Below, one piece after another: positions 18,936 to 39,895 of a stretch of DNA of 64,000 nucleotides. The notes beneath the pieces were generated by a model that was given only the letters and a program-made list of their open reading frames with translations, had not been told where the DNA came from and searched no databases. Every line of letters begins with the position of its first letter. The stretch's first letter is position 1. A program made the translations under genes and the position numbers. Source of the DNA: Paenibacillus sp. BIHB 4019 (lineage in GTDB: Bacteria; Bacillota; Bacilli; Paenibacillales; Paenibacillaceae); assembly GCF_002741035.1 (NCBI RefSeq), contig NZ_CP016808.1:4450501-4514500 (forward strand). The letters are read 5' to 3'.

Positions 18936-18995
18936 TTGAACAACGCCCTCATTTCCATTACAATAGAAATGGCCTTATTGATAATGGTTATCAAT
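18936..18995 (+). promoter_or_regulatory. Promoter and Fur box before the first AraC regulator
   Basis: TTGAAC (18936-18941), 17 bases and TACAAT (18959-18964) form the promoter. ATTGATAA-TGG-TTATCAAT at 18977-18995 is a perfect palindrome with the Fur-box pattern GATAAT..TTATC. It covers the start of transcription, a repressing position. Confidence 0.8.
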
Positions 18996-19032
18996 TAAAG
19001 AAAGGCGAATTTTATGTTGGGAGGCAGCAGCG

Positions 19033-20670
19033 ATGATTAGCAAGAAGGAAGCCCATCCCTTTTTTCATCAAACCTTAGTTGAAATCAAGCAGGCCGATAT
19101 TTTGGAGAGCCCTGAAGATTGGCAGCAGGAAGCTTATCCAATCAAAAGCCACACCCTCATATACGTTGTAAAAGGGAAGGGAGAGCTGCAGCTCAATCAC
19201 CGGCCCTCCCAGTTCAGCCCCAAAACAGCATTTATGCTGCTGCCAGGAACGGTTGTGAAATGGAAAGTCGAGCCGGATCGGCCCCTTTTATTATTCCGGC
19301 TGGCTTTCCATTTGTTTCGGATGGGAGATCGAAGCAGCAAGCAGCTGACCTTCGACAAAGAGCTGGAGTTTCCCGTAACGGGAAAGCTGGCTATTGCCCA
19401 TACTGCCGCCATGTCCCGGCTGTGCAAGCAACTGGCAGCTTGTGATTATGCAGCGCCGAGTGTTGATCCTCTGCGCTATCAGCAGCACATGCATAAGTTA
19501 TTTGCCTTGCTAGTTGGCAGCGTTCCAGCGTATGCTGAGCATGCTGATGATCCGATTCAGCGCACGCTCCATTACATGGAGCGTCAATATGCGACGGGCG
19601 TTACGCTGCAGGAACTGGCACAGGTCGCCCAAATGCACCCGACTTATTACTCTGCTCAGTTCAAACTCAGGCTTGGCAAAAGCCCGATAGAATATTTGAA
19701 TCAGCTGCGGATGAACCGCGCTAGGGAGCTTATGCTCACCACGCCTGAAAAAATGCGAAATATAGCCCGCTTGACCGGATTCAGCGATGAATTTTATTTC
19801 AGCCGCCGATTTAAGGCAAGCTACGGCAGCTCTCCTACTGTGTATATGAAGAAGCATCCGCCATTAAAAGTATCCTCCCTTTCTTCCCCGTACACCGAAA
19901 ACTTGCTCGTGTTAGGTATTAATCCCTGTGAAAAGGATAGTAATGGCGAGCTGCTTTCGGAGAAAAAATGGCTTTCCGCCAAAACAGACGGCATGGCGAG
20001 CTGGGAATATAAACGGCGAAGCCTGCTCAGCAGCAAGCCGGATGTCATTTTATGCAAGGAGCACATTTTAAACGAGACGCGAATGTATATGGGGGATATT
20101 GCGCCTATTATTACGGTACCTTGGCTTAGTCTGGATTGCTTTGATCATATGCGGGCAATCGCTAAATTGACGGATAGGGAAAGCCATGCCCAGCATTGGA
20201 TGGAGCAGCATGAAGCGAGGGAGGCGCAGGCGTTAAAGCAAGTGGAGCAGAAAATCGGCCGCAGTTCGGCTGCTATTTGTGTTATTGCCGGTCATAAAAT
20301 CAAAATGTATGGCGGGCGCAACATTGGCCATGTGTTTTATCGCTCCTTGCGGCTGGAGCCGCCGGAGCAAATCCGCCGGGAAATGAACAAGCATGATGCG
20401 GGCACTATTTTTAACTGGCTGGAGGTGCCGGCAGAGCAATTTGGACAATATGAAGCGGATTATTTATTTGTTCTGATTGAACCAAAGGCTGGGGCGCTAA
20501 ATAAGCTGGCGGAATTGCAGGCAACGGAAGGGTGGCAGCGGCATCGGGCTGTCAGAAAAAATAATGTGTTTATGCTGGATTGGTCCCGTTGGATTGGCTA
20601 TTCGCCTTTTTCGATCACCAAGCAGCTTGACGATGCGGTTGCCCTGCTTACTGCTCCGCGCTATGGCTGA
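19033..20670 (+). CDS. AraC regulator with siderophore-binding-like domain (Btr type)
   Basis: A 545-residue fusion. Residues 1-165 form a cupin-like N-terminal region (LIYVVKGKGELQLN). Residues 172-275 are an AraC double helix-turn-helix (TLQELAQVAQMHPTYYSAQFK, NIARLTGFSDEFYFSRRFK, SPTVYMKK). Residues ~280-545 resemble a FhuD/TroA-type siderophore-binding protein. This is the layout of B. subtilis Btr, an activator that senses its siderophore directly. A Fur box overlaps its promoter, and a siderophore-binding lipoprotein gene follows. It probably activates nearby siderophore genes when the ferric or free siderophore binds. Confidence 0.88.
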   Translation: MISKKEAHPFFHQTLVEIKQADILESPEDWQQEAYPIKSHTLIYVVKGKGELQLNHRPSQFSPKTAFMLLPGTVVKWKVEPDRPLLLFRLAFHLFRMGDRSSKQLTFDKELEFPVTGKLAIAHTAAMSRLCKQLAACDYAAPSVDPLRYQQHMHKLFALLVGSVPAYAEHADDPIQRTLHYMERQYATGVTLQELAQVAQMHPTYYSAQFKLRLGKSPIEYLNQLRMNRARELMLTTPEKMRNIARLTGFSDEFYFSRRFKASYGSSPTVYMKKHPPLKVSSLSSPYTENLLVLGINPCEKDSNGELLSEKKWLSAKTDGMASWEYKRRSLLSSKPDVILCKEHILNETRMYMGDIAPIITVPWLSLDCFDHMRAIAKLTDRESHAQHWMEQHEAREAQALKQVEQKIGRSSAAICVIAGHKIKMYGGRNIGHVFYRSLRLEPPEQIRREMNKHDAGTIFNWLEVPAEQFGQYEADYLFVLIEPKAGALNKLAELQATEGWQRHRAVRKNNVFMLDWSRWIGYSPFSITKQLDDAVALLTAPRYG

Positions 20671-20750
20671 GAAAGTACAAGGCTAAAAATCATAAAATAT
20701 GCTATGGAGCATCGCCGTATAGCTATCTATAATTCAATTGAAGATGATGA

Positions 20751-20765
20751 TGATAATCGTTATCA
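20751..20765. promoter_or_regulatory. Fur box before the siderophore-binding lipoprotein
   Basis: TGATAA-TCG-TTATCA is a perfect palindrome of Fur type, about 40 bases before the start codon. A TATAAT at 20728-20733 lies just upstream, so the box would sit near the transcription start. Confidence 0.8.
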
Positions 20766-20804
20766 AAAAAAATGGGCAGGTATAATCCATAGGAGGAACA
20801 CAGC

Positions 20805-21755
20805 ATGAGCAAGTTTCATCGCATATTTATTTTAATGCTGCTTGTTATCGTTACAGCTTGCGGCGGCAATGCAGGAACACAGCCGGAAGGGGCGGCAGCG
20901 GATGGGGCAGCGACTGCAAGCAGCTCGCCAGCAGCGGCAGTAGACACAAATTCAGCAGGCGATAAACGCATTGTATCGCTGTCGATTTTGCATACGAGCA
21001 ATTTATTGGCGTTAGGCATTCAGCCTTATGGTGCCGTTACGCAAGCAGGGAAGGATTTTCTGCCTCATGCAGCCCCATTGCTGGAAGGAACGGTGAATTT
21101 GGGAAATTCGCAAGAGCCGAATTTGGAGGCCATTGTGGATGCTGCTCCCGATCTCATTATCGGGCAGGATGAGCTTTTGAAAGGGAATCGGGCAGAATTG
21201 GAGAAAATAGCTCCGGTTTATTCGCTTCCGGCATTTGGCGAAATGACTTGGCGCGAACAACTGCTTGAGCTTGGCAAAGAGACAGGACGCGAACAAGAGG
21301 CGCATCAATTCATGACGGATTACGATGAGAAGCTGGCAAAGGTGAAGGCAAACGTTAAGCAAGCGATTGGCGAGGATACGGTATTGGTCATTCGGGTTAT
21401 GGCAAAGGAAATCAGGCTGTATGGACTTGACCGCAGTTACGGTTCGCTGCTATATGAGGATTTGGGCTTGAATCCGGTTGCTGGACTTGAGAAATTCCCG
21501 GAAGGCCCGCAGGCGATTTCCCGAGAAGTGCTGCCCGAATATGATGCGGATCGCATATTGCTGGAAGTAGCGAAAGCAGATGAGGCGCAGGCGCTTTATG
21601 CAGAGCTCCAAAACAGCGCGATTTGGAACAATATGAAAGCTGTGAAAAATGGACATATTTATATGATTGAGCAGCAGCCTTGGCTGGATTATTCGGCATT
21701 AGGCATGCTGAAATCGCTGGAGCTTGCGGATTCTCTCCTAACCTCCAAAGAATAA
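20805..21755 (+). CDS. Iron-siderophore-binding lipoprotein (FhuD/FecB-like)
   Basis: A 316-residue binding protein. The short signal peptide ends in VTACGG, a lipobox with Thr-Ala before the Cys. An Ala/Ser-rich linker is followed by the fold's markers RIVSLSILHTSNLLALGIQPYG, EPNLEAIVDAAPDLIIGQDE and a C-terminal WLDYSALGML. It has no permease of its own; the nearest FecCD pair is at 33369-35356 with another binding protein. It follows the Btr-type regulator and has its own Fur box, so it probably captures the siderophore that this regulator senses. Confidence 0.88.
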   Translation: MSKFHRIFILMLLVIVTACGGNAGTQPEGAAADGAATASSSPAAAVDTNSAGDKRIVSLSILHTSNLLALGIQPYGAVTQAGKDFLPHAAPLLEGTVNLGNSQEPNLEAIVDAAPDLIIGQDELLKGNRAELEKIAPVYSLPAFGEMTWREQLLELGKETGREQEAHQFMTDYDEKLAKVKANVKQAIGEDTVLVIRVMAKEIRLYGLDRSYGSLLYEDLGLNPVAGLEKFPEGPQAISREVLPEYDADRILLEVAKADEAQALYAELQNSAIWNNMKAVKNGHIYMIEQQPWLDYSALGMLKSLELADSLLTSKE

Positions 21756-21786
21756 GCACATCATTGAATAAAGCGCATTATCATTA

Positions 21787-21843
21787 AAAAGAGCCTGTTC
21801 TCCTGTCATGATCTAAAATGACTGCGGGAACAGGCTTTTTGGT
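21787..21843. terminator. Bidirectional terminator
   Basis: AGCCTGTTC and GAACAGGCT form a stem flanked by A-runs on the left and a T-run on the right (about 21786-21841). It lies between the plus-strand lipoprotein gene and the convergent sbnE-like gene. Confidence 0.75.
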
Positions 21844-21867
21844 GCTTAAACGGGAATTGAGCTGTTC

Positions 21868-23661
21868 TTATGATTCATCTCTGCGCATTGGATTTGGTAT
21901 TTCCACATATAAGGGTGTTTCGCCGCGCTGATGAAAACGGCTGAGCAGATTTGCCTTTGCCGGGAGCGTAGCGCTGGTTAATAAATCTTGAATAAGATTG
22001 TGCAAAAGCGCATGGGAGGATGTTTGCTTGATTTCTTGCAGCATGTCGCTCGCGATCGCCCAGTACACCTGCTCTTCCTGCCCGCTATAATACGAAATTC
22101 GTGCAATTAGATGGGAGAGATGGTTAACGAAAAAATAATATTTTAAGCGATGGCGTGCTTGCTCCTCGGAATAGAGGACAGGGCTGTCCTCCCGCAGCAA
22201 GGTGTTAATCCAGCCCCGCTGCTCGGCGATTTCCATGTTAATGCTAATACCCTCAAGATCTCTGACATAAAAAGTGCCGGGCATGCCTTGGTGCAAGCGC
22301 AGCATCGCATTTTGCACATGCGCTTCCAGGCTTATGCCTGTTTCCGCGTATAAATGCAGCAGCGGCTTCATCGACAGGTGCAAATATTGGCGCAGCCAAT
22401 TTGTCCAGTCGGGCAGCTTCGGATATAGCGCTTGGCGCACAGCTCGGAATAGCAGCGGCTCGCTATGTCCGGGAGGGACTTCGAGCAAGGACGCGATGAC
22501 AAATGGCGGCTCCTCGGCAGAAGTGCATTCTTCCGGCGCCTCGCGCACAATCATAGAAAAAGCAGACATTAACTCCTCGTTCAAGCTTTGCCCGGCTTCA
22601 GGTATACGCAGCGTGCGGTAACCTTCCTCTAGCAAAAGCTTAAATGACTCCGTCGTATACTCCTTCCGAATAGCATCAATCGCTCTTGAGGCGTCAAGCG
22701 TTCGCAGCAGCTGTTCGGGCGTATTCTCACGAATGAAATTCGTAATCCGAATGTGCAGCGACAGCTTGTAAAAGCAAGCTTGCTCCGGGTTCCATACCGT
22801 TCGCACAGATGAGGTTGGGTATACGAGTGGCCCGGTATCCCCTAAATCTACAAGCAGCCCTTGCTCCAGCAATTTTTGCACAGGCGCAAGGCTGCGTACA
22901 TATTCTGCCTGCCAAGGATGGCAAGGCAGAAGCCTATAATCGCCGCTCGCCGCGCCAAGCTTCGCTTCGGCTGCCGCTTTCATCGCAGGCGGAATCCACG
23001 CGAAGTGCTCCTCATTCGATTGTTCGCCAAGCCAATCCTCCGCAATATATTCAGCTGCCGCAGCAAAGCAGTGAAGCGTGAAGGCAGCGCCGAATTCCGG
23101 CGAATAAGCCTGTGAATCGCTGTCCGAAAAGCCTTGCAGGCTTTTTGGAGTCGGATGAAAGGGATGTCCGCAAAGCAGCGCCTGCTCCAAATAGCGGAAA
23201 TCAAGGAGCCGCTCCCCTTGTTCGCGCTCTTGCTCAGCGGCAAAAGCCAAATAGTGATTTAAACGCTGCTGGCTGTTATGAATAAGGGCTTCCAGCTCCG
23301 CCCGTTTTTGCGATTTAGACGATGAGTCTGCCTGGGCGAAGCAAATTTCATCCAGCACGAGCTGAATCACTTCGGCGAACGAGTTTTTTTTCCACTGCTG
23401 TGCATCCTTTGTATAAAAATGCTCCCCAAACACATGATGGCCGCCCGCAGACAAATGCAGAACAGTTCCGTAGATTCCAAGCTTCGTGTGTGGGAGCCAA
23501 ATGACTTTCGTTATTTCAGGATGAAAAAAGGAAACATCGCTAGGCTCGAATTGCCCTGATTCGCGAAGATAGGCATTTAACAAGCGGGTGATGCTTTCTT
23601 TTTCCGAGAGCTGAACGGATGGGCTAGATAAAGGATCTTGGTTAATTTGGGCTTGCGGCAT
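21868..23661 (-). CDS. NIS siderophore synthetase, SbnE-like
   Basis: A 597-residue IucA/IucC-family synthetase, which couples a carboxylate such as citrate to an amine through an acyl-adenylate. GHPFHPTPKS (165-174), LLPCHPWQAEYV, YPTSSVRTVW, ISLEAHVQNAML and YVRDLEGISINME are the nucleotide and substrate signatures. These variants match staphyloferrin B SbnE, as I remember it, better than SbnC or SbnF. SbnE joins citrate to L-2,3-diaminopropionate. The gene is second in a minus-strand operon after the MFS exporter, with AAAGGAG before the ATG. It is divergent from sbnA-B-H and two SbnF-like genes. Confidence 0.85.
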   Translation of the reverse strand: MPQAQINQDPLSSPSVQLSEKESITRLLNAYLRESGQFEPSDVSFFHPEITKVIWLPHTKLGIYGTVLHLSAGGHHVFGEHFYTKDAQQWKKNSFAEVIQLVLDEICFAQADSSSKSQKRAELEALIHNSQQRLNHYLAFAAEQEREQGERLLDFRYLEQALLCGHPFHPTPKSLQGFSDSDSQAYSPEFGAAFTLHCFAAAAEYIAEDWLGEQSNEEHFAWIPPAMKAAAEAKLGAASGDYRLLPCHPWQAEYVRSLAPVQKLLEQGLLVDLGDTGPLVYPTSSVRTVWNPEQACFYKLSLHIRITNFIRENTPEQLLRTLDASRAIDAIRKEYTTESFKLLLEEGYRTLRIPEAGQSLNEELMSAFSMIVREAPEECTSAEEPPFVIASLLEVPPGHSEPLLFRAVRQALYPKLPDWTNWLRQYLHLSMKPLLHLYAETGISLEAHVQNAMLRLHQGMPGTFYVRDLEGISINMEIAEQRGWINTLLREDSPVLYSEEQARHRLKYYFFVNHLSHLIARISYYSGQEEQVYWAIASDMLQEIKQTSSHALLHNLIQDLLTSATLPAKANLLSRFHQRGETPLYVEIPNPMRRDES

Positions 23662-23689
23662 GTTGGATTAGCTCCTTTCAAACGCTAAT

Positions 23690-24919
23690 TTATTGGGCGG
23701 AAAAATGTTTTTGCTGCCGAATATGGGCAGCGGGAAACCAGACAAGCATAGAGGCGAGCAGCATGAAGCCTCCCATCACCAAAAAGACAGAGGACAGGCC
23801 TAGCTGAGCGCCAATAAAGACACCGATGGTTGGCCCGGAAATTTGGCCCGCCATGAGGAGGCTGTTTGTTGCCCCGATTTTAACGCCTCTGTCATGGTCG
23901 GATGAGGTTTTGAGGACAGACAGCATGACGGTTTGCAATAATGCACTGTAAAAAAAGCCTTGCAGAAAACGGACAATAAAAAGCCAGATCAAGCCAAAAG
24001 GCAGCGTCTGGGCGATGATGCAAAGGGCGCATAATAGCCCGGCTGCGGTGAAATTGCGTGCGGGCTGATGGTTATCATTTCTTTTCCCCCACCATGGGCC
24101 GCCTATTAATTCTCCAGCAGAGGAAGCGGCAATAAGTACGCCTACCGCCGTCGCTGCTTTAGCAGGCGAATCAAGCAGCTCCCGCATATACGGCGTGAAA
24201 ATCGTGAAGGTTGCGAAGTCCGCAAGCTTGAACAATATGCCGGCAGCGATAAAGGAGCGTGCTACAGGGTGCTTCAAAAGCGCAGCAAAAGCAGCGAATA
24301 TGCCGCTTCGCATAGAGGGGGGGATCGCAGCTTTTGGCTTTTCCTGTGCAGAGCCGGGTAAAACAAAGGCAGCAATGATGGCAAATGAAGCGGTTAAAGA
24401 GGCGGTTATGAACAGCAAGGGACCGCTTCCCCATGTATTTACGCAAAGGCCGCCGAGCAAAGGGCCAACGAGCAGTCCTGCCGCGGAAGCGCGTTCCATT
24501 TGCCCAAGCGCCAATCCTTGCTTCTTAGGCGGAGCGTGGGTTCCGATGAACGCACTGCTTGCATCGGAGATGCCGCCGAACGCGCCCTGGCATAGCCGAA
24601 ACAGAAAAAATTGAAACGGCGTTGCGGCAATGGACATCAGGAACATGCTTAACGCCAGCCCTAACAAAGCTCGGACTACCATCCATTTTCGACTCCAGCG
24701 GTCGCCGAGCTTGCCCCAGAAAGGAGTAAGCAGCGCATAAGAAACAGCTGGCGCCGACACGGCAAGTCCGGTCCACATGAGTACTTGGGAGGGGCTTCCT
24801 GCATGAAGAGACTCCATGTAGTACGGAATAAATGGGCTAATGCCTGTTAATCCTGCGCTGGTAAGGAACCTTCCTCCCCATAATACACGTACACTCCTAT
24901 TCCAAGATAATTGCTGCAT
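23690..24919 (-). CDS. MFS transporter, probable siderophore exporter
   Basis: A 409-residue, 12-helix major facilitator protein. The loop 2-3 motif is FWGKLGDRWSRKWMV, with a second, similar loop after helix 8. It starts at ATG 24919, behind AGGTGAGG. It shares a Fur-controlled promoter region with the siderophore genes and precedes the SbnE-like gene by 28 bases. Its position equals that of SbnD, the staphyloferrin B exporter; function in export is inferred from context, since the family also exports drugs. Confidence 0.82.
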   Translation of the reverse strand: MQQLSWNRSVRVLWGGRFLTSAGLTGISPFIPYYMESLHAGSPSQVLMWTGLAVSAPAVSYALLTPFWGKLGDRWSRKWMVVRALLGLALSMFLMSIAATPFQFFLFRLCQGAFGGISDASSAFIGTHAPPKKQGLALGQMERASAAGLLVGPLLGGLCVNTWGSGPLLFITASLTASFAIIAAFVLPGSAQEKPKAAIPPSMRSGIFAAFAALLKHPVARSFIAAGILFKLADFATFTIFTPYMRELLDSPAKAATAVGVLIAASSAGELIGGPWWGKRNDNHQPARNFTAAGLLCALCIIAQTLPFGLIWLFIVRFLQGFFYSALLQTVMLSVLKTSSDHDRGVKIGATNSLLMAGQISGPTIGVFIGAQLGLSSVFLVMGGFMLLASMLVWFPAAHIRQQKHFSAQ

Positions 24920-24969
24920 TTTATCCTCACCTGCCTTGTCTAACGTGATAAATAATCAAATACCACCCA

Positions 24970-24998
24970 AGATTAGCAACAATGATTATCAAAGTCAA
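24970..24998 (-). promoter_or_regulatory. Promoter of the MFS-sbnE operon with Fur box in the spacer
   Basis: Read on the minus strand: TTGACT (24998-24993), a 17-base spacer and TAATCT (24975-24970). The spacer contains TGATAATCATT, a Fur-box match at 24981-24991. Fur would block RNA polymerase directly. Confidence 0.75.
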
Positions 24999-25034
24999 TA
25001 AAATTAAAGAAAAATTATACAAAATAAAAATATA

Positions 25035-25102
25035 TTGACAGGTAAAAAAAGGAATCGCATAATGGAGCCTATGTCGCTATGTGATATTAATAATCATTAT
25101 CA
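25035..25102 (+). promoter_or_regulatory. Promoter and Fur box of the siderophore biosynthesis operon
   Basis: TTGACA (25035-25040), 17 bases, CATAAT (25058-25063). Downstream, TAATAATCATTATCA at 25088-25102 matches the Fur 7-1-7 consensus TGATAATNATTATCA at all but one position. Start codon at 25153. Confidence 0.8.
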
Positions 25103-25152
25103 TCCAGGCGTGTAAGCGACATTGAAAACTAGAGGAAAGCTGGTGTTCATGC

Positions 25153-26190
25153 ATGGAACAAAACGCTTTGCAGGTTAAAGAAAGATCGCCGAAAATAGCC
25201 AATACGATCATCGATTGTATCGGACGAACGCCATTAGTACGCTTAAATTCGCTGTTTGCTCCCCACGGGGTATCTATCTTCGCCAAGCTAGAGATGATGA
25301 ACCCAGGCGGCAGCATGAAGGATCGGCCTGCCCGCTACATTATCGAGAAAGGGCTGAGGGAAGGGACGATTCAGGCGAATACCCATCTGATCGAGAGTAC
25401 GTCGGGCAATTTGGGCATTGGCCTCGCACTCGCTGCAAAGATGTACGGGTTAAAATTCACCTGTGTGGTAGATCCGAAAATTACCTCGACCAATTTGCGA
25501 ATGATTACTTATCTGGGTGCCCAAATCGACATGGTTAAGGAGCCTGATGAATTTGGAAGCTATTTACAGTCACGAATAAGCAGAGTAAAGGAGCTTGCGA
25601 GCCAGGATCGCCATGCTTACTGGATCAATCAATATGCGAATCCGCTTAACTGGGAAGCGCATTATTATGGGGCAGGAGAGGAAATCGTGGAGCAAATGGA
25701 CAGCCCAATCGATTATTTAGTGTGCGCTGTGAGTACAACTGGCAGTATACTCGGAATTTCTCGCCGCGTAAAGGAGGCATTTCCACGGGCCAAAATTATT
25801 GCGGTAGATGCAGTAGGCTCCATTATTTTCGGAACACCGGCTGCTCAGCGTGAGCTGCCTGGCATCGGAGCAAACCGCGTGCCCGAATTATTTGCTTCGC
25901 TTGAGGTCGATCAGGTCATCCATGTCAACGATCGCGAATCGGTGCAGGGCTGCCGCAAATTGCTGGAGCGCGAAGGGATTTTTGCTGGTGGATCATCGGG
26001 CTCCCTTGTAGCCGCTTTGCAAAAATTGCTTCCGACCTTGCCGCCTTCAGCCAACGTAGTAACCGTGCTGCCAGACCGGGGAGAGCGTTATTTGGATACG
26101 GTATACGATGAGCGATGGGTACAGCAGCTGCCGCTTGGCAATGATTCAGCAGAGCAAAACCAATACGAGCAAGGAGTGGTTAAAAAATGA
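25153..26190 (+). CDS. sbnA: SbnA-like N-(2-amino-2-carboxyethyl)-L-glutamate synthase
   Basis: A 345-residue PLP enzyme of the cysteine-synthase fold. The PLP lysine is K56 in NPGGSMKDRPA, the substrate loop is STSGNLGIGLA, and AVSTTGSILGIS is the phosphate-binding loop. In staphyloferrin B biosynthesis SbnA condenses O-phosphoserine with glutamate, and SbnB then releases L-2,3-diaminopropionate. The next gene is SbnB-like and overlaps it as ATGA, which argues strongly for this role rather than cysteine synthesis. It opens a five-gene operon under a Fur box. The ribosome site is weak (GAGGAAA, far upstream of ATG 25153). Confidence 0.87.
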   Translation: MEQNALQVKERSPKIANTIIDCIGRTPLVRLNSLFAPHGVSIFAKLEMMNPGGSMKDRPARYIIEKGLREGTIQANTHLIESTSGNLGIGLALAAKMYGLKFTCVVDPKITSTNLRMITYLGAQIDMVKEPDEFGSYLQSRISRVKELASQDRHAYWINQYANPLNWEAHYYGAGEEIVEQMDSPIDYLVCAVSTTGSILGISRRVKEAFPRAKIIAVDAVGSIIFGTPAAQRELPGIGANRVPELFASLEVDQVIHVNDRESVQGCRKLLEREGIFAGGSSGSLVAALQKLLPTLPPSANVVTVLPDRGERYLDTVYDERWVQQLPLGNDSAEQNQYEQGVVKK

Positions 26191-27206
26191 ATCAGGTACA
26201 GGAGCATGAAATTTTATATTTGAGCAAGCAGCATATTGTGGAGCTTGGCGGAATGCATTCAGCGCCATATGTCGCAGCGGTAACCCGGGCGTTTGAGCTT
26301 CATGCCAAGGGAGAATTTATGCAGCCGCTAAAACCGTATTTGCGGGTGAACGGGGATGCAGGCCATATTGCCGATCGTATCATCGCTATGCCGGCTTATG
26401 TCGGCGGCGAGGTTGCCGTAAGTGGACTGAAATGGATTGGCAGCAAGCACGACAATCCGGCAAAGCGCAATAAGGAGCGGGCAAGCGCACTCATTATTTT
26501 GAATGATCCCGAGTCCAATTATCCGATTGCCGTCATGGAGGGAAGTCTCATAAGCGGCATGCGTACAGCAGCGGTGACCGTCATTGGGGCAAAGCATTTA
26601 GCCAAAAAAGATTTTGGTGCGGTTTCGGTCATTGGCTGCGGCGTCATCGCGAAGATGCAGATCACCTCTTTGGTCGAGCAATTTGCGGCCATTCATACCG
26701 TTCGACTATTCGACTTGAACCGAGAAAATGCCTTGCGGCTAGTCGAAGAGCTGCGGGAGCAGTTCAAGCAGGTTGAGTTCAAGGTAGTGGAATCGGCGGA
26801 GCAAGCGGTTAGGCAGGCGGAAGTGCTCGTCACAGCGACAGTAGCCTCAGCGCCGTATATTCCGTATGAATGGCTGAGCAAAGGGACGTTCATCAGCAAT
26901 ATCTCGATTATGGATGTGCATAAGGACGTATTCGTTCATGCAGATAAAGTCGTTGTCGACGATTGGGATCAATCCAACCGCGAGAAAAAAACGATTAACC
27001 AGCTTGTGCTGGAGGGCAAGTTTTCGCGTGAGCAGCTGCACGCTGAGATGGGTGAAATCGTAATCGGCAGCAAGCCGGGGCGTGAAAACGATGACGAAAT
27101 TATTTTGCTCAATCCGATGGGAATGGCGGTTGAAGATATTTCAAGCGCGGCAGAAATTTATGCGCAGGCTGTGAAGAAAGGGATAGGTACGCGTCTATGT
27201 CTGTAA
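26187..27206 (+). CDS. sbnB: SbnB-like N-(2-amino-2-carboxyethyl)-L-glutamate dehydrogenase
   Basis: A 339-residue member of the ornithine cyclodeaminase/mu-crystallin family. The Rossmann nucleotide loop is VIGCGVIAKM (148-157), and GLKWIGSKHDNP and SGMRTAAVTVIGAK are family signatures. SbnB oxidatively cleaves the SbnA product with NAD+ into 2-oxoglutarate and L-2,3-diaminopropionate; both are staphyloferrin B building blocks. The gene overlaps both neighbours (ATGA start; 10 bases into the decarboxylase gene), so it is tightly coupled in the operon. Confidence 0.87.
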   Translation: MNQVQEHEILYLSKQHIVELGGMHSAPYVAAVTRAFELHAKGEFMQPLKPYLRVNGDAGHIADRIIAMPAYVGGEVAVSGLKWIGSKHDNPAKRNKERASALIILNDPESNYPIAVMEGSLISGMRTAAVTVIGAKHLAKKDFGAVSVIGCGVIAKMQITSLVEQFAAIHTVRLFDLNRENALRLVEELREQFKQVEFKVVESAEQAVRQAEVLVTATVASAPYIPYEWLSKGTFISNISIMDVHKDVFVHADKVVVDDWDQSNREKKTINQLVLEGKFSREQLHAEMGEIVIGSKPGRENDDEIILLNPMGMAVEDISSAAEIYAQAVKKGIGTRLCL

Positions 27207-28447
27207 CTACAAGCGGCGTACGTTCAGAAATGCAGAACATCGTTCCTTATATTCAAAAGCTGAAGGCCGAGCAGCCTGGACTATTATGTGCCTATGTGCG
27301 TGATATGGATGCGTTGCGCAGCCATGTGGGGGTGCGGGTGCAATCGCTGCCCCGGCGCTGCAAGCTATTTTATGCGATTAAAGCCAATTCGGAGCGCGAG
27401 GTGCTTGCTGCCCTCGCTGAAATTGTGCACGGCTTTGAGGTCGCATCGCTAGGTGAAATCAGAAAAGTGCGTGAAATATCTTCAGATATTCCGATTTTAT
27501 TCGGCGGACCTGGAAAGACGGAAGAAGAACTGGAAGGCGCAATCGAATACGGTGTCAGTCTCATCCATGTGGAGAGCGGGCATGAGCTGAATAAGCTGAA
27601 TGCGATTGCTGAAAGGCGCGGCATTGTAGCACCGGTTCTGCTGCGCATTAATTTGCGGGGCCCGCTTCCGCAAGCGACGCTGGCCATGGGCGGAAAGCCA
27701 ACTCAGTTCGGCATTGACGAGGAGTCGCTGCCGGAGGTAATGGGGCAATTGCAGAAGCTGCGGCATGTCCGCGTGGAAGGGTTCCATTTTCACTCCCTAT
27801 CGAATAATTTGGATGCCGAGCAGCATGTTCGCCTAGTCGAATATTATTGCGAAATTTCTCGGCAGTGGGCTGCAAAATACGGCTTAACCTTGAACTATAT
27901 CAATGCTGGCGGCGGCATCGGTGTCAATTATGCGGATTTGGAGCAGCAGTTTGATTGGGATGGGTTCGTCAGCGGCTTAGCGCCAATGCTGGAAAAGGAG
28001 CTGCCGCCAACGACTACCATTCTTTTTGAATGCGGGCGTTATCTTACTGCCGCAAGCGGCTATTATGCTGCGGAGGTGCTGGATATTAAGCGGAATCACG
28101 GGAAGGATTATGTCATTATTCGTGGAGGCACCCATCATTTTCGGCTTCCGGTTTCCTGGAATCACAGCCATCCGTTTGAGCGGATTGCCATTGAGCATTG
28201 GCCGCATTCCTATGAGCGTCCGGCGCTTTATGACGGTTCGGCTACCATAGTCGGCCAGCTATGTACGCCGAAGGATGTGCTGGCACATGAGGTTGAAATA
28301 AAAGAGGTACGCGTAGGCGATATTCTGCTGTTTCGTTATGCGGGCGCATATGGCTGGGCGATTTCGCATCATGACTTTTTGAGCCATCCGCATCCTGAGC
28401 ATAAATATGTCGAAGGCCTGAACTCTCTTTTTGGAGGTGGCGTATGA
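27197..28447 (+). CDS. sbnH: SbnH-like PLP decarboxylase
   Basis: A 416-residue type III PLP decarboxylase of the ornithine/diaminopimelate decarboxylase fold. The PLP lysine is K62 in FYAIKANS, the phosphate-binding glycines are in NAGGGIGVNY, and the second-subunit cysteine motif is GQLCTPKDVLA. In staphyloferrin B synthesis SbnH decarboxylates the citryl-diaminopropionate intermediate to citryl-diaminoethane. Placement between sbnB and NIS synthetase genes supports this over lysine or polyamine metabolism. Start and stop overlap the neighbouring genes. Confidence 0.85.
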   Translation: MSVTTSGVRSEMQNIVPYIQKLKAEQPGLLCAYVRDMDALRSHVGVRVQSLPRRCKLFYAIKANSEREVLAALAEIVHGFEVASLGEIRKVREISSDIPILFGGPGKTEEELEGAIEYGVSLIHVESGHELNKLNAIAERRGIVAPVLLRINLRGPLPQATLAMGGKPTQFGIDEESLPEVMGQLQKLRHVRVEGFHFHSLSNNLDAEQHVRLVEYYCEISRQWAAKYGLTLNYINAGGGIGVNYADLEQQFDWDGFVSGLAPMLEKELPPTTTILFECGRYLTAASGYYAAEVLDIKRNHGKDYVIIRGGTHHFRLPVSWNHSHPFERIAIEHWPHSYERPALYDGSATIVGQLCTPKDVLAHEVEIKEVRVGDILLFRYAGAYGWAISHHDFLSHPHPEHKYVEGLNSLFGGGV

Positions 28448-30261
28448 GCCAGATAGGTTTGACATTGCTGCACTCGAATGAGCGGATTCAAGTAAGAAGG
28501 CGAATTTTTCGTCAACTGATAGAGTCGCTGTTGTATGAGCGAATTGTAACCGGGCCCGCTATCGCCTACGGTGCAGAATCAGAATATGAGCTTCACGGAA
28601 AGACCGACTCTGGGGAGGAGGTTGCTTATCGGTTTAAAGCTTCCCGTAAAAAAAGCTTTGGCCGCATCCGCTTGTCGGAGGAGCCCGTTGTGCGCTGCAC
28701 GGCAGGTCGCGCCGCAGAGGCGGATTCTCTGCCTCGCTTTCTGCTGGAAATCGCGCCCGCGATAGGGACGACGGAGACCTTATTGTCTGTCTTTATCGAT
28801 GAAATTCAGCAAACGCTGCTGAAGGATACGATGGCTGTCCAAAAGCTGCTGGAATTGCAGCAGCATAAGCCAGCCGATTATGACGACTGGGAGAGCTATG
28901 TGCAAGCGGGCCATCCGTATCATCCCTGCTATAAATCAAGAATCGGCTTTACGCTGGAAGACAATTTGGCCTATGGACCGGAATTTAAGCCGGAGCTGAA
29001 ATTGGCTTGGGTGGCCGTGCACCAGGAAGCTGCGAGTTTTTCGATCGCTCGCATGCTTGATATTACTAGCTATATGCAGCATGAGCTTGGAGCCGATTAC
29101 GCCGCATTCCAAGCGACAATAGAGGCTGCTGGTAAAAACCCCAGCGAGTATGTGCTGCTGCCGGTTCATCCTTGGCAGTGGGAGCGATTCGCGGCGACCG
29201 CTTTTTTCGAACAAATGGAGACGCAAGAGATCATTTATTTAGGCTATGGCAGCGATAGCTACGTGCCCCAGCAGTCCATTCGTACCCTCAGCAATCGGGC
29301 GGACAAGTCCAAGGCATACGTTAAGCTGCCACTAAGCATTACGAATACATCGTCCGGCCGAATATTGGCTCGGCATACGCTGCTTAATGCAGCGCGCATA
29401 TCGGATTGGCTTGGCGAAATGGTGGCAAGCGATGCTTTTTTACGCGATGAGCTCAGGCTCATTATGCTGAAGGAGGTGCTGGGTGTTTCTTATCAGCATC
29501 AGAAGCTGCCAAACCTGCTTGAGCAAAAGGTCTATGGCGCGCTTGGCGCTATTTGGCGCGAAAGCTTGCATCCGTATTTGGAGCCAGGCGAGGAAGCTCT
29601 TCCTTTTGGCGCCTTAAGTTATCTTCAAGCGGACGGGACACCGGTCATCGATGGCTGGATTCAGAAGCATGGCATGGAGCGCTGGGTGAAAAAGCTGCTT
29701 AGCGTCTCGGTCGTACCTTTGATTCATTTGCTGTACGCGCATGGAACGGCGCTGGAGTCCCATGCGCAAAATATGATGATTGTACTGGAGCGGGGGCTGC
29801 CGACACGTATCGCTTTGAAAGATTTTCACGACGGCATTCGCTATTCGCCTGCCGTTCCCAATCCGCTGGGCTATCCGGACATTATGTATCCTCCATCCAA
29901 TCATCAACGCGTCAACCGCAATTCATTCATTGCGAAGGAAGAGGTCAAGGAGGTCAAAGACTTTTTGCTCGATGCGTTTATGTTTATTAATTTAACCGAG
30001 CTGGCCTTCTTTCTGGAACAGCATTATGGCTTGCCCGAGGAGGCATGGTGGCAAATGACGGCTGAGATTATCGTGGGTTATCAGGAGAAATTCCCAGAGC
30101 TTCAGCATCGTTTTGAGCTGTTTGATCTATTTGCTTCTGAAATCGAGGTGGAACAGCTGACGAAACGCCGATTATACGTAGGCCCGAACGATTGCGTTCA
30201 TAGCGTAAGCAACCCGCTGTATGCGTTCCACCCGAAGCACCGCACATTAGTAGGGGAGTGA
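28444..30261 (+). CDS. NIS siderophore synthetase, SbnF-like, copy 1
   Basis: A 605-residue IucA/IucC synthetase. GHPYHPCYKSRIGF (156-169), LLPVHPWQWERF, QQSIRTLSNR, PLSITNTSSGRIL, LESHAQNMMI and IALKDFHDGIRY are the nucleotide/substrate signatures. They are the SbnF variants, as I recall them. SbnF adds a second diaminopropionate to the decarboxylated citryl intermediate. Its ATG overlaps the decarboxylase stop as ATGA. The next gene is a paralogue with the same motifs. Confidence 0.85.
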   Translation: MSQIGLTLLHSNERIQVRRRIFRQLIESLLYERIVTGPAIAYGAESEYELHGKTDSGEEVAYRFKASRKKSFGRIRLSEEPVVRCTAGRAAEADSLPRFLLEIAPAIGTTETLLSVFIDEIQQTLLKDTMAVQKLLELQQHKPADYDDWESYVQAGHPYHPCYKSRIGFTLEDNLAYGPEFKPELKLAWVAVHQEAASFSIARMLDITSYMQHELGADYAAFQATIEAAGKNPSEYVLLPVHPWQWERFAATAFFEQMETQEIIYLGYGSDSYVPQQSIRTLSNRADKSKAYVKLPLSITNTSSGRILARHTLLNAARISDWLGEMVASDAFLRDELRLIMLKEVLGVSYQHQKLPNLLEQKVYGALGAIWRESLHPYLEPGEEALPFGALSYLQADGTPVIDGWIQKHGMERWVKKLLSVSVVPLIHLLYAHGTALESHAQNMMIVLERGLPTRIALKDFHDGIRYSPAVPNPLGYPDIMYPPSNHQRVNRNSFIAKEEVKEVKDFLLDAFMFINLTELAFFLEQHYGLPEEAWWQMTAEIIVGYQEKFPELQHRFELFDLFASEIEVEQLTKRRLYVGPNDCVHSVSNPLYAFHPKHRTLVGE

Positions 30262-30265
30262 GAAG

Positions 30266-32140
30266 ATGGAATACGGAAAGACAGAAGTTTTGACAGCGCT
30301 GCCGGTAGAGGGAGCGAGGCAGGAAAACAATTATGCGCTGGCGATGCGCTCAGCTCATTATGTTCAAGTAAGACGCCGGATTTTTCGGCAGCTGGTTCAG
30401 TCCATGCTCTATGAAGGAATTGTCGAAGGCTTGAAGTCGGAGCCGGGTAATCGCTGGTCCTGTGAAATTCAAGGGGTGAGCGAGAGCGGGGAGGCGGTCG
30501 CATATATTTGCGGGGGCACGCGGCATCTTACGTTTGACCGCTTGCGGATGGATGGCCAGCCGCTAAGGCGCCGAATCCATAACAGCGAAGCCGAGGCGGA
30601 TTCGCTTTCGCTATTTCTGCTTGAGACGGCTGCGGGGAGTGGAGCAGATGAGGCGCGGACGCTGCATTTTATCCAGGAGCTTGAACAGACGCTAATTAAC
30701 GATACGCTTGCCCAATATGAACGGCATCAAGTGGCCATTCCTATCCATCAGCAGCCTTATGAGGACTGGGAAAGCTTGATTATGGATGGGCATCCGTATC
30801 ATCCGAGCTACAAATCGCGTATTGGCTTTAATGTTTCGGATCATTGGGCGTACGGACCGGAGTTTGCTAAGCCAATCGAGCCTCTATGGGTAGCTGTGCA
30901 GCGGGAGTTCGCAAGGACAAGCAGCTCAGCCACACGCCAAAATGCCCATTCATCGCAAACTGACCTGAACGAATGGATTAGCACACAGCTGGATGAGGGG
31001 AGCCGTTCCAGATTCGCTGCTTATTTCAAGCAGGCTGGCGTTGATGCAGATTCCTATGTGCTGCTGCCCGTCCATCCATGGCAATGGCACAATAAATTAA
31101 CGTCCGTATTTGCAGCGCCTATTCGCGAGGGGAAAATCATGCTGCTCGGCACGGCAGGGGAGCTTTATACCGCCCAGCAATCGATTCGCACGCTTGCCAA
31201 TCGGACAGCTCCGCATAAAGCCTATATCAAACTGGCCTTAAGTATTTTAAATACATCAACCGGAAGGATTCTGGCTCCTCACACGGTTGAAAATGCACCT
31301 GCCATTACGGATTGGCTCCAAGGCTTGGCAGCTGAAGACAGCTATTTACGCGAGCAGCTGCGTGTCATCCTCTTAGGCGAGGTGGCGGGGGCGGCCTATG
31401 TCGATGCCGATATTCCCGCTGCTTTGCAGCCGCAAAGCTATGGCGTGCTCGCCTGCATATGGCGGGAGAGCCTGCACCCGCTGCTGCTGCCGGAAGAATC
31501 GGCCGTGCCGTTCAATGCGCTATGCGCAACGGATTTAGACGGCGCGCCAATCATTGATCCATGGATTAAGCAGCATGGAGCGGAAAACTGGTTGACCAAG
31601 CTGCTGAACGCGAGCGTACGCCCGATTATTCATTTTCTATTTGCCCATGGCATCGCTCTCGAATCTCATGCTCAAAATATGGTATTGATTCATCAAGCGG
31701 GACTGCCGCAGCGGGTTGCACTGAAGGATTTTCATGACGGCATTCGATTTATGAAAGCGGCACTAGTCCAGCCAGACAAGTGCCCGCAGCTAGTGCAAGT
31801 TCCGGAATATCATCAACGGGTCAATCGCAATTCGTTTTTGGAAACGGATGACCCGGCCGCTGTGCGCGATTTCGTCCATGATGCCTTTTTCTTTATTAAC
31901 TTAGGGGAACTGGCGTTGTTTATGGAGGAGCATTACGGCTTCGCCGAGGAGAAGTTTTGGCAGCTGGCTAAACGGATTATTGTGGAGTACCAGCAGCAGT
32001 TTCCAGAGCATGCAGAGCGGTTTGAACGCTTCTCGCTGTTCGATGCAGTCATTGGCGTTGAGCAGCTGACGAAAAGAAGGCTGTTCCCGGATAATGAGCT
32101 CCGCATTCATCAAGTACGCAATCCTTTAGCCGATCACTGA
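30266..32140 (+). CDS. NIS siderophore synthetase, SbnF-like, copy 2
   Basis: A 624-residue paralogue of the preceding gene: GHPYHPSYKSRIGF (175-188), LLPVHPWQWHNK, QQSIRTLANR, ALSILNTSTGRILAPHT, LESHAQNMVLIHQ and VALKDFHDGIRFM. It has about 20 extra N-terminal residues and an extra Ser/Thr/Asn-rich stretch after VQREFARTS. It starts four bases after copy 1 ends. In staphyloferrin B the third synthetase is SbnC, which adds 2-oxoglutarate; here a second SbnF-type enzyme takes that place. It may act on a different acceptor or amine, so the product may differ. Confidence 0.85.
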   Translation: MEYGKTEVLTALPVEGARQENNYALAMRSAHYVQVRRRIFRQLVQSMLYEGIVEGLKSEPGNRWSCEIQGVSESGEAVAYICGGTRHLTFDRLRMDGQPLRRRIHNSEAEADSLSLFLLETAAGSGADEARTLHFIQELEQTLINDTLAQYERHQVAIPIHQQPYEDWESLIMDGHPYHPSYKSRIGFNVSDHWAYGPEFAKPIEPLWVAVQREFARTSSSATRQNAHSSQTDLNEWISTQLDEGSRSRFAAYFKQAGVDADSYVLLPVHPWQWHNKLTSVFAAPIREGKIMLLGTAGELYTAQQSIRTLANRTAPHKAYIKLALSILNTSTGRILAPHTVENAPAITDWLQGLAAEDSYLREQLRVILLGEVAGAAYVDADIPAALQPQSYGVLACIWRESLHPLLLPEESAVPFNALCATDLDGAPIIDPWIKQHGAENWLTKLLNASVRPIIHFLFAHGIALESHAQNMVLIHQAGLPQRVALKDFHDGIRFMKAALVQPDKCPQLVQVPEYHQRVNRNSFLETDDPAAVRDFVHDAFFFINLGELALFMEEHYGFAEEKFWQLAKRIIVEYQQQFPEHAERFERFSLFDAVIGVEQLTKRRLFPDNELRIHQVRNPLADH

Positions 32141-32247
32141 CGTTCATGGATAAAAATGGGTATATTTTCACTGATATTAAAAATAATGCATGAGATCGAC
32201 AGCTTATTGCATGGACAGCTTGCCGGAAGGCTTGGTATTCTTATTAT

Positions 32248-32262
32248 TAATGATAATCATTA
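32248..32262. promoter_or_regulatory. Fur box before the siderophore uptake operon
   Basis: TAATGAT-A-ATCATTA is a perfect 7-1-7 palindrome, part of a longer TTATTAATGATAATCATTA stretch. It lies 24 bases before the start codon, over the likely transcription start. Confidence 0.82.
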
Positions 32263-32285
32263 TTAATCGCAGGGAGATGTCGTAC

Positions 32286-33269
32286 ATGCTAGGAAGAGCT
32301 TTAGACAAAAAACACCGTTTTACGATTCATTTTGCAGGGTTTATGATTTTGCTCCTTATTTTATCGGGCTGCGGCAATGCGGCTTCTGGCGGAACCAATA
32401 CCGCCTCGCCGGATGCAGCCTCACCTGAAAGCACAAGCAGCGCGGAGCCAGCGGCAACGACCCGGGTAGTCAAGGATACATATGGCGATGTTGAAGTACC
32501 TGCGAATCCAGCGCGAGTTGTTGTGCTTGATATTGGGGCTTTGGATAATTTGCTGGAGATGGGCGTCAAACCAGTCGGTGCTCCTTCAATATTGGCCGCT
32601 GGCGATCCTTATCCTGCCTATTTGGCAGGAACGGATGGCATTGAAAATATTGGCTCGGTCAATGAGCCGAATCTTGAAGCGATTGATGCGCTGAAACCTG
32701 ATTTAATTATTGGAAATAAAGATACACACGATGCGATTCATGATCAGCTGGCGCAAATTGCCCCAACCGTATTCGTAGAAACGCTTGGCGTAACTTGGAA
32801 GGAAAACTTGCAGCTGCATGCGGACGCTGTGAACAAGCAGGCTGAAGGCACAAAGCTGCTTGAGGGCTACACGCAAAAAATAAATGAGCTGAAAGCAAAA
32901 GTCGAAGGCAAGGAAGTTTCGCTCTTCCGTCCGCGTCAGGATAAAATCCAAATTTATTTGGAAGGCACATTTGCTGGCGGCATTATGAAGGAAGCGGGCA
33001 TCGTTCGCCCGGCCGCGCAAACCGATGAAGGTTTCTCTAAAGATTTAACCGAGGAGCAGATCGCTGACCTTGATGGCAATGTTATCCTTTGGTTTGATCG
33101 GGAGAAGGATGCATTTGCCAAGCTGGAAAGCAGCCCGCTATGGAAAACCTTAAAAGGAGCGCAAAACAATAGCGTCCATCCGGTAGATTGGGAATATTGG
33201 ATGAGTGGCCTAGGTATTCAAGCGGCTACTAAAGTGGCTGATGATATAAACACTTATGTTGCTGGCTAA
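32286..33269 (+). CDS. Iron-siderophore-binding lipoprotein
   Basis: A 327-residue binding protein with lipobox LSGC. The markers are TYGDVEVPANPARVVVLDIGALDNLLEMGVKPVG, EPNLEAIDALKPDLIIGN and WKTLKGAQNNSVHPVDWEYWMSGLG. ATG 32286 has AGGGAG nine bases upstream; an in-frame ATG at 32277 is too close to it. It starts an uptake operon with two FecCD permeases, directly after the siderophore biosynthesis operon, so it most likely binds the ferric form of the siderophore made here. Confidence 0.88.
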   Translation: MLGRALDKKHRFTIHFAGFMILLLILSGCGNAASGGTNTASPDAASPESTSSAEPAATTRVVKDTYGDVEVPANPARVVVLDIGALDNLLEMGVKPVGAPSILAAGDPYPAYLAGTDGIENIGSVNEPNLEAIDALKPDLIIGNKDTHDAIHDQLAQIAPTVFVETLGVTWKENLQLHADAVNKQAEGTKLLEGYTQKINELKAKVEGKEVSLFRPRQDKIQIYLEGTFAGGIMKEAGIVRPAAQTDEGFSKDLTEEQIADLDGNVILWFDREKDAFAKLESSPLWKTLKGAQNNSVHPVDWEYWMSGLGIQAATKVADDINTYVAG

Positions 33270-33295
33270 AAGATTCGCGAATATCGTTTCACTGA

Positions 33296-33330
33296 AGATT
33301 GGGTCTCCCGCATTGGCGGCCCAATCTTTC
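33296..33330 (+). terminator. Terminator-like hairpin between binding protein and permease
   Basis: AGATTGGG (33296-33303) pairs with CCCAATCT (33320-33327), then TTTCT. It is weak as a terminator and may reduce permease expression relative to the binding protein. Confidence 0.5.
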
Positions 33331-33368
33331 TGTATGATTATACCGTTTTACGTTCGGAGGTAGAAACA

Positions 33369-34358
33369 TTGAGGGGCAGAATGACCGGTTTGGCAGTACT
33401 GCTTGTTTTACTTGTGCTGGCATGGGCTTCCAGCATTATGTTTGGCATTGTACGGGTGCCTTTTGCAGCAGTTATCGATGCTTTTTGGGCTTTTGACGAA
33501 TCACGGGATCAGCTCATCGTAAGGTCGGTCCGATTGCCGCGGGCGATGATCGCGATGCTGGTTGGCGGCTCATTAGCAGCAGCGGGCTGTCTGATGCAGG
33601 CGCTTAGCCGCAATGCGCTCGCTGGCCCGGAATTGTTCGGCATTAATTATGGAGCCGCTTTAACGACCGTTATCGCGTCATTCCTTTTCGGCACAACTTC
33701 GCTGGTTTTGTTTACTTGGTCAGCCTTTGCGGGCGCTGCTATAGCTGGTTTTTCGGTATTTATGCTGAGCTCCATCGGCAGACAGCCGCTAACGTCGGTC
33801 AAGCTGGTGCTAGCAGGGGCCACGATTAATTTGCTGCTGGCTTCGCTGACGCAAGGCATTCTTATTTTAAATGAACAATCGCTGGATACGATGCGCTTCT
33901 GGCTGGCCGGCTCGATTACGGGTCGGGATATGCAATTGTTTTTAACGGTGCTTCCTTATATGCTGCTTGGTTTGGTTGGCTCCTTTTTATTAGCAGGACA
34001 CATGAATGTCATCAGCCTAGGGGAGGAGATGGCCCAAGGCTTAGGTCAGCGGGTCATATTGATCAAGCTGCTCTGTATCGGCGTCATTATTATTTTAGCC
34101 GGAAGCGCTGTTGCCATTGCGGGGCCCATTGCTTTTATAGGGCTGGCGGTTCCACATATTGCCCGGTTCATGGTTGGAACCAATTATCGCTGGATTTTGC
34201 CTTATGCCATCGTATTAGGCGCGTTGCTGCTATTGCTGGCTGATATCGCAGCCCGGTTTATATTGCCTGGCGAGGAGCTGCCTGTAGGCGTCGTGACTGC
34301 TTTTCTGGGAGCGCCCTTTCTCATTTATTTGGCACAGCGAAAGGGGGGAGCGAAATAG
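33369..34358 (+). CDS. FecCD-family siderophore ABC permease 1
   Basis: A 329-residue permease of the BtuC/FecCD family, with about ten hydrophobic helices. RLPRAMIAMLVGGSLAAAGCLMQALSRNALAGPELFGINYGA is the family signature, and the cytoplasmic coupling helix is near PIAFIGLAVPHIARFMVG. The start is TTG 33369, with GGAGG eight bases upstream. Its partner follows directly; no ATPase gene is found in the window. Confidence 0.9.
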   Translation: MRGRMTGLAVLLVLLVLAWASSIMFGIVRVPFAAVIDAFWAFDESRDQLIVRSVRLPRAMIAMLVGGSLAAAGCLMQALSRNALAGPELFGINYGAALTTVIASFLFGTTSLVLFTWSAFAGAAIAGFSVFMLSSIGRQPLTSVKLVLAGATINLLLASLTQGILILNEQSLDTMRFWLAGSITGRDMQLFLTVLPYMLLGLVGSFLLAGHMNVISLGEEMAQGLGQRVILIKLLCIGVIIILAGSAVAIAGPIAFIGLAVPHIARFMVGTNYRWILPYAIVLGALLLLLADIAARFILPGEELPVGVVTAFLGAPFLIYLAQRKGGAK

Positions 34359-34402
34359 TTTCTTCTATTATAAAGGGACGCTACTGGGGAATCATTTTAC
34401 TC

Positions 34403-35356: not shown

Positions 35357-35401
35357 TAGAAGAAATTGTCACGGTTTTACGAAAGGTCGGTGCTAAACCG
35401 A

Positions 35402-38208: not shown

Positions 38209-38209
38209 T

Positions 38210-39847: not shown

Positions 39848-39866
39848 CTTTGCAGGTACCCCTTTT

Positions 39867-39895
39867 CATCTATTGAGAATGATTATTACGTTCAA
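39867..39895 (-). promoter_or_regulatory. Promoter with Fur-like box before the NikA-like gene
   Basis: On the minus strand TTGAAC (39895-39890), 17 bases, and a weak -10 TAGATG (39872-39867). The spacer holds a 15-base Fur-like palindrome at 39874-39888, 13 of 15 matches. This repeats the arrangement of the 24970 promoter. Confidence 0.6.

Follow-up and report, generated by a model that had tools for sequence, protein, structure and literature searches.

The 64,000-nucleotide stretch of the Paenibacillus sp. BIHB 4019 genome analysed here, referred to as the window (NZ_CP016808.1, positions 4,450,501 to 4,514,500), contains a siderophore locus related to the staphyloferrin B genes of Staphylococcus, with an altered set of nonribosomal peptide synthetase-independent siderophore (NIS) synthetases. 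All seven open reading frames (ORFs) at 21868-32140 are open. The minus strand carries NIS3 (21868-23661), an SbnE-like synthetase, and an SbnD-like major facilitator superfamily (MFS) exporter (23690-24919; PF07690). On the plus strand follow SbnA (25153-26190; TIGR03945, 434 bits against a cut-off of 350), the predicted synthase of the L-2,3-diaminopropionate (L-Dap) precursor; SbnB (26187-27206; TIGR03944, 395 bits against 327); an SbnH-like pyridoxal phosphate (PLP) decarboxylase (27197-28447; PF02784 and PF00278); and two SbnF-type synthetases, NIS1 (28444-30261) and NIS2 (30266-32140). All three synthetases show the PF04183 and PF06276 pair of the IucA/IucC family, and the other Pfam matches at the locus are MFS_1, PALP, OCD_Mu_crystall and Orn/DAP/Arg decarboxylase. 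NIS3, whose nearest solved proteins are IucA and AcsD, groups with an Aneurinibacillus copy inside the clade that holds staphylococcal SbnE, apart from hydroxamate-type enzymes. The SbnH-like protein is 51-54% identical to SbnH of four Staphylococcus-like loci and is assigned by that identity and by context, the curated set being without an SbnH model and the tree without outside decarboxylases. The unit runs on beyond 32140 into uptake and regulator genes on the same strand (32190-36982): a substrate-binding lipoprotein listed at 32190-33269, with a true start probably at about 32275-32287 (NF008501, 138 bits, below the cut-off of 320); two ferric-siderophore permeases at 33369-34358 (best model NF007760, 279 bits) and 34403-35356 (best model NF007871, 284 bits), each below its cut-off; and, by domain scan, an AraC-type regulator fused to a periplasmic-binding domain (AraC-PBP; 35366-36982). 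No ATPase gene for the permeases was seen within the locus.

In staphyloferrin B synthesis SbnE and SbnF put L-Dap on citrate, with SbnH acting in between, and alpha-ketoglutarate is the substrate of SbnC (excerpt of PMC3179956). Each reaction at the window locus can be predicted from this by homology. SbnA and SbnB would make L-Dap, with release of alpha-ketoglutarate by SbnB; NIS3 would join citrate and Dap; the SbnH-like enzyme would decarboxylate citryl-Dap to citryl-diaminoethane (citryl-Dae); one of the SbnF-type enzymes would add a second Dap to the other citrate arm; and the exporter and uptake genes would export and re-import the siderophore. Of the marks of a staphyloferrin B locus, SbnA and SbnB (above their curated cut-offs), the SbnE-type NIS3 and an SbnF-type enzyme, of which there are two, are present. 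SbnC is missing. The host genome is a single contig of 7,246,671 bases, and a PF04183 search finds only three NIS genes in it, all at this locus; this search and the SbnC model together reject an SbnC hidden elsewhere in the genome. NIS1 and NIS2 reach 85 and 96 bits on the SbnC model against a cut-off of 700. No SbnG or SbnI relative matches in the host genome at an E-value of 0.001, and the model for FslA, the rhizoferrin synthetase, gives 87-112 bits against its 1000-bit cut-off. A preliminary description, made from the letters of the window alone, had proposed SbnA and SbnB equivalents, an MFS exporter, one SbnE-like and two SbnF-like synthetases and neither SbnC nor SbnG, in a Paenibacillus-like host. 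The models, the Pfam scan and the SbnE clade bear this gene set out, the absences extend from the locus to the whole genome, where the searches for sbnC and sbnG homologues that it called for recovered no clade member, and NIS1 is 92% identical to a P. algorifonticola protein.

The same absence recurs among relatives. An SbnC-model search of 32 genomes found no SbnC-clade synthetase in any of the 22 with the window's arrangement (type I), many of which are drafts and one of which (G114) is 88% complete; no best score exceeded 98.9 bits, which is about what SbnF-like enzymes give. The model gives 922-1043 bits in five of five Staphylococcus-like genomes, above the cut-off, 363-459 bits in G561, G542, G532 and G597, and 103 bits in G491, an Aneurinibacillus-like genome with the type I set (locus L182). 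SbnG relatives occur in 10 of 31 genomes, within the 22 type I genomes only in G149 and G170 as partial matches (38-39%) distant from the locus. SbnI relatives occur in 5 of the 31, in none of the 22 type I genomes and in none of four SbnC-containing genomes of the genus, so that the absence of SbnI is not peculiar to type I. If SbnC is missing, capping of Dae must either not take place or be the work of an SbnF-type enzyme.

Both tandem synthetases are of the SbnF type. The SbnF model gives 609 bits for NIS1 and 589 bits for NIS2, both below its 900-bit exception cut-off. NIS synthetases are divided into types A, B and C, SbnC being of type B; NIS3 as an SbnE-like enzyme belongs to type A, and NIS1 falls into type C, grouping by sequence with SbnF and the petrobactin synthetase AsbB. 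At 20 columns diagnostic for SbnF or SbnC, chosen from 43 SbnF and 19 SbnC rows (20 SbnC sequences were added and one was lost to a repeated name), NIS1 has the SbnF state at 19 and NIS2 at all 20, and NIS1 has the SbnC state at none. The SbnF state is not universal across the 28 NIS1 rows, as one column carries it in 6 rows and three columns in 25; the SbnC letter is found in 3 rows at one column and in 1 row at another. NIS1 as an SbnC-like enzyme is therefore not supported by either score or columns. These columns also bear on the reading that NIS1 or NIS2 has taken over ligation of alpha-ketoglutarate, which would make the product staphyloferrin B after all. Such a takeover would fit the remaining staphyloferrin B set (A, B, E, F and H) and the alpha-ketoglutarate that SbnB should release, but it sits poorly with the SbnF state of both copies and with the coexistence of NIS1 and SbnC in Tumebacillus and Archangium, and we consider it distinctly unlikely.

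Neither copy looks dead, a possibility that the preliminary description had raised. In two comparisons the ratio of nonsynonymous to synonymous substitution rates (dN/dS) lies at 0.14-0.20 in NIS1 and at 0.15-0.17 in NIS2, values like those of NIS3 and SbnH, and 14 selected active-site motif columns are invariant in 28 of 28 NIS1 and 22 of 22 NIS2 rows. Both copies thus look to be under selection and catalytically intact. The predicted structure of NIS1 (mean predicted local distance difference test, pLDDT, 90.8; predicted template modelling score, pTM, 0.91) has AsbB as its nearest solved fold (template modelling score, TM, 0.91 at 38% identity), followed by DfoC and DesD and then AlcC. Solved SbnC (7cbb) reaches a TM of 0.78 at 17% identity and IucC 0.75-0.77, values so nearly equal that the fold search hardly separates synthetase types. 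The rank of DfoC, DesD and AlcC would suit an extra enzyme that oligomerises or cyclises citryl-Dae, for instance to a cyclic dimer (432.149), like the type C enzymes of the alcaligin and desferrioxamine pathways, and citryl-Dae does have an amine together with free carboxylates. This would leave the other SbnF-type enzyme without a clear role although every one of the 21 fetched loci has both (NIS1 being fragmented in one), and we rate it as quite improbable.

Five residues (G324, Q353, E360, P483 and N486) are fixed throughout NIS1 and almost never seen in SbnF, and a sixth, I480, is conserved differently, in a comparison from which locus L153 was excluded, its genes being in pieces. P483 and N486 fall within the least certain part of the NIS1 model, with blocks at pLDDT 68-70 around residues 481-500. 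Such NIS1-only residues would suit an extra enzyme that attaches to a Dap-citryl-Dae core some other compound of primary metabolism, either an amine that is neither Dap nor Dae or a different carboxylic acid. The 11 conserved genes of the layout hold none for another amine or acid, and this reading seems unlikely, if worth keeping in view.

The two copies are old lineages. Trees were thinned, to 100 of 145 SbnF-type rows in the first, 77 rows in another and 59 rows in the most careful, and in the last NIS1 forms a clade of its own (support 99/99) with one SbnF-like enzyme each from Archangium, two Tumebacillus, a Bacillus badius plasmid, Aneurinibacillus and P0267, while NIS2 forms a second (97/94) joined by the other Aneurinibacillus copy. 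Forcing NIS1 and NIS2 of type I and L182 together is rejected (approximately unbiased test, AU, p 8.7e-5), and with it a recent tandem duplication. The earlier claim of two tandem SbnF-like paralogues stands as to their type, and they are not a fresh pair. Deep joins are weak and depend on the tree, the 100-row tree grouping NIS2 with SbnF of Brevibacillus, Archangium, Marinithermofilum and Pseudonocardia (81-89) and the 59-row tree not doing so. Gene order points to NIS2: a NIS2-like copy sits in the SbnE-F-G-H series of L063, L183 and L184 and in the SbnE-F-H series of L158, with NIS1 elsewhere, and in Staphylococcus-like loci SbnF comes after SbnE. On gene order we therefore see in NIS2 the counterpart of SbnF, as a preference rather than a result, the tree not settling the matter.

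The locus is conserved across the family. In a sample of 394 genomes, for which all locus counts are lower bounds, the type I layout of 11 genes, including the uptake genes and the AraC-PBP regulator, is present in at least 22. The window's gene order, exporter included, is repeated in 21 of 21 other fetched loci, and therefore is not due to chance; in five of them the fetched stretch ends within the regulator. Otherwise 19 of these 21 have no fragmented gene, the exceptions being L149 (one permease) and L153 (NIS3, SbnB and NIS1). As the rest of the type I locus L153 is open, it may represent loss in progress or assembly errors. NIS1 and NIS2 are 43-48% identical to each other and both are kept over 22 loci; their distances correlate across loci at 0.978, which shared ancestry would also give. 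Among the matches listed for the sample are 16 further tandem pairs, which were fetched.

Within the genus, NIS genes are present in 25 of 51 genomes and the type I arrangement in six. Four genomes (G002, G004, G037 and G048, the last with both types) have a type II arrangement of two SbnF-like genes with SbnA and SbnB, which has no SbnC, has flavin mononucleotide (FMN) monooxygenase genes downstream and has SbnE fused to SbnH in three of four loci. Each fusion is one ORF (L032, 2914-6180; L034, 12023-15067; L055, 4058-7528) beside the two SbnF-like synthetases, SbnA and SbnB, and the genomes that carry these fusions are without SbnC as a whole. The type II pair arose by an independent duplication (100/100). 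SbnC occurs with SbnA and SbnB in three genomes (G024, G030 and G045) and in the locus of G046 without them; these four SbnC genes reach 386-449 bits, and SbnG is present in each of the four genomes. Separately, L049 and L050, from two genomes, place a single SbnF-like enzyme together with SbnA, SbnB and genes of hydroxamate type (monooxygenase, GNAT, PLP decarboxylase and class III aminotransferase), and possibly make mixed Dap/hydroxamate citrate siderophores.

Comparison with known systems defines what is particular to the window locus. The Staphylococcus sbnA-I genes share with it SbnA, SbnB, SbnE-, SbnF- and SbnH-type enzymes and the MFS exporter, whereas the window locus lacks SbnC, SbnG and SbnI, has the extra SbnF-type synthetase, has SbnE and the exporter divergent from the operon and has an AraC-PBP regulator. 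The SbnC-containing clusters of the genus (L040, L043, L051 and L052) share SbnE, SbnF and SbnH, and all except L052 also SbnA and SbnB, in place of which L052 has an aminotransferase and an ATP-grasp gene; they differ in having SbnC, SbnG and a single SbnF, and in L040, L043 and L051 a second SbnH, while their genomes, like that of the window, are without SbnI. The four-synthetase clusters of Tumebacillus (L183 and L184) and Archangium (L063) have a NIS1-clade enzyme as the window does, but keep SbnC and SbnG, and NIS1 is directly followed by a second SbnH, giving two SbnH copies. The Bacillus badius plasmid locus L158 and the Aneurinibacillus-like L182 have SbnA, B, E, F and H with NIS1, like the window, and unlike it keep an SbnI-like gene, the gene order of L158 also being different; no SbnC was seen in the locus of L158 or in the genome of L182. 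AsbB is the solved protein nearest to both NIS1 and NIS2 in sequence and also nearest to the NIS1 model in fold; in contrast to petrobactin, the locus genes examined include Dap-making genes and no dihydroxybenzoate genes.

We propose a model in which the extra SbnF-type enzyme adds a second citryl unit. After Dap has been joined to citrate and citryl-Dap decarboxylated, one SbnF-type enzyme, which gene order suggests is NIS2 while the tree leaves the choice open, would add the second Dap, and the other, in our view NIS1, would act at the step where staphyloferrin B uses SbnC. With citryl-Dae as donor it would acylate the amine left free on Dae, a second citrate thereby replacing the alpha-ketoglutarate ligand. 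Two points favour a second citrate from citryl-Dae. The extra enzyme has retained what marks enzymes expected to act on citrate monoamides, and in type I and in type II, independently of each other, a second SbnF-type enzyme goes together with a lack of SbnC. The type II fusions of SbnE to SbnH are in keeping with the proposed order of SbnE and then SbnH. Furthermore, where NIS1 stands next to SbnC, in Archangium and Tumebacillus, a second SbnH comes immediately after NIS1, which speaks against pure replacement and for a chain-extending role. We hold with moderate confidence that this is a conserved, probably iron-regulated citrate/L-Dap carboxylate siderophore locus without the SbnC/alpha-ketoglutarate step in which the extra enzyme adds a second citryl unit. 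Its product is probably a staphyloferrin B-related molecule not yet described. The exact structure and the substrates of the extra enzyme are speculative: Dap-citryl-Dae-citryl-Dae (536.208) or a relative is our candidate, and the 536 Da structure itself is put forward tentatively. More tentative again, by a little, is the broader view that the NIS1 clade represents a functional class of NIS synthetase in its own right, which joins two citryl units via a citryl-Dae donor, giving a family of citrate/Dap siderophores free of alpha-ketoglutarate, and that a second SbnF-type enzyme has come to stand in the place of SbnC at least twice, once in type I and once in type II.

Several observations weigh against this model. 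In the 59-row tree the one SbnF that the SbnC-containing Paenibacillus loci possess is placed with NIS1 and type II (98/96), staphylococcal SbnF falls on the NIS1 side as well (89/95, not a strong branch), and SbnF of the four Staphylococcus-like loci is slightly nearer NIS1 than NIS2 by BLAST (472-488 against 455-472 bits). Since Tumebacillus and Archangium have NIS1 next to SbnC, NIS1 is not simply the substitute of SbnC. The alpha-ketoglutarate that SbnB should yield would stay unused, and with only five NIS1-fixed positions a different substrate is not obvious. Finally, a Methylobacterium sbnC mutant shows a weaker chrome azurol S (CAS) reaction with normal growth (excerpt of PMC9301485), from which it follows that an uncapped intermediate may suffice. 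This growth and the few fixed differences between the NIS1 and SbnF groups are what one would expect if the two SbnF-like enzymes were redundant and the siderophore were uncapped Dap-citryl-Dae (320.133). Redundancy does not explain why both copies are kept at such low mutual identity over 22 loci, and we judge it very improbable.

No characterised product for the type I locus was found in the titles and opening abstract lines of open-licence PubMed Central literature. Nearest to one come two reports: Paenibacillus sp. JDR-2 has sbnA/sbnB homologues with the product given as 'Unknown' (excerpt of PMC3179956), and P. polymyxa CR1 has a 'staphyloferrin-like' synthetase (excerpt of PMC4209062). 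The available excerpt of PMC13293324 holds nothing on the type I locus. Triabactin was considered as a known parallel and set aside as not comparable, its operon having one NIS synthetase (excerpt of PMC10080011).

Regulation of the locus is probably by iron, as judged from Fur-like sites. Using a generally known Fur-box core consensus with up to three mismatches, 12 matches are found in the window against 4.0 expected, a number reached in 0 of 100 shuffles. Eight of these lie within 18979-32265 and amount to five separate spots, as three pairs overlap: upstream of the first of the AraC-PBP regulators and of both lipoprotein genes, and at two places in the divergent exporter/SbnA promoter. The first spot (18979-18993, plus strand, one mismatch) precedes an AraC-PBP regulator at 19033-20670 (plus strand; PF12833, PF00165 and PF01497), a neighbour outside the conserved 11-gene layout. 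A further neighbour, a siderophore-type substrate-binding lipoprotein (20805-21755, plus strand; PF01497), has a Fur-like site upstream at 20751-20765. The divergent promoter (24977-25102) holds sites at 24977, 25082 and 25088 with three, two and one mismatches, the last two overlapping, and two overlapping sites (32245-32265, plus strand; three and one mismatches) precede the lipoprotein gene of the locus itself. Counting a regulator at 40042-41703, three AraC-PBP fusions lie inside 23 kb, the others being those at 19033-20670 and 35366-36982. Between those at 35366-36982 and 40042-41703, a solute-binding protein family 5 gene adjoins another MFS gene (37012-39888); a Fur-box-like site with two mismatches lies at 39874.

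The type I locus is widespread and conserved, beyond what the preliminary description could see from one stretch. If our model is correct, a recurrent locus of the Paenibacillaceae makes an undescribed carboxylate siderophore, and naming such clusters 'staphyloferrin B' from SbnA, SbnB and SbnF matches would misname their product. Furthermore, the type I, type II and SbnC-containing loci would then provide a natural series for the choice of donor and acceptor by NIS synthetases, which is not yet readable from sequence.

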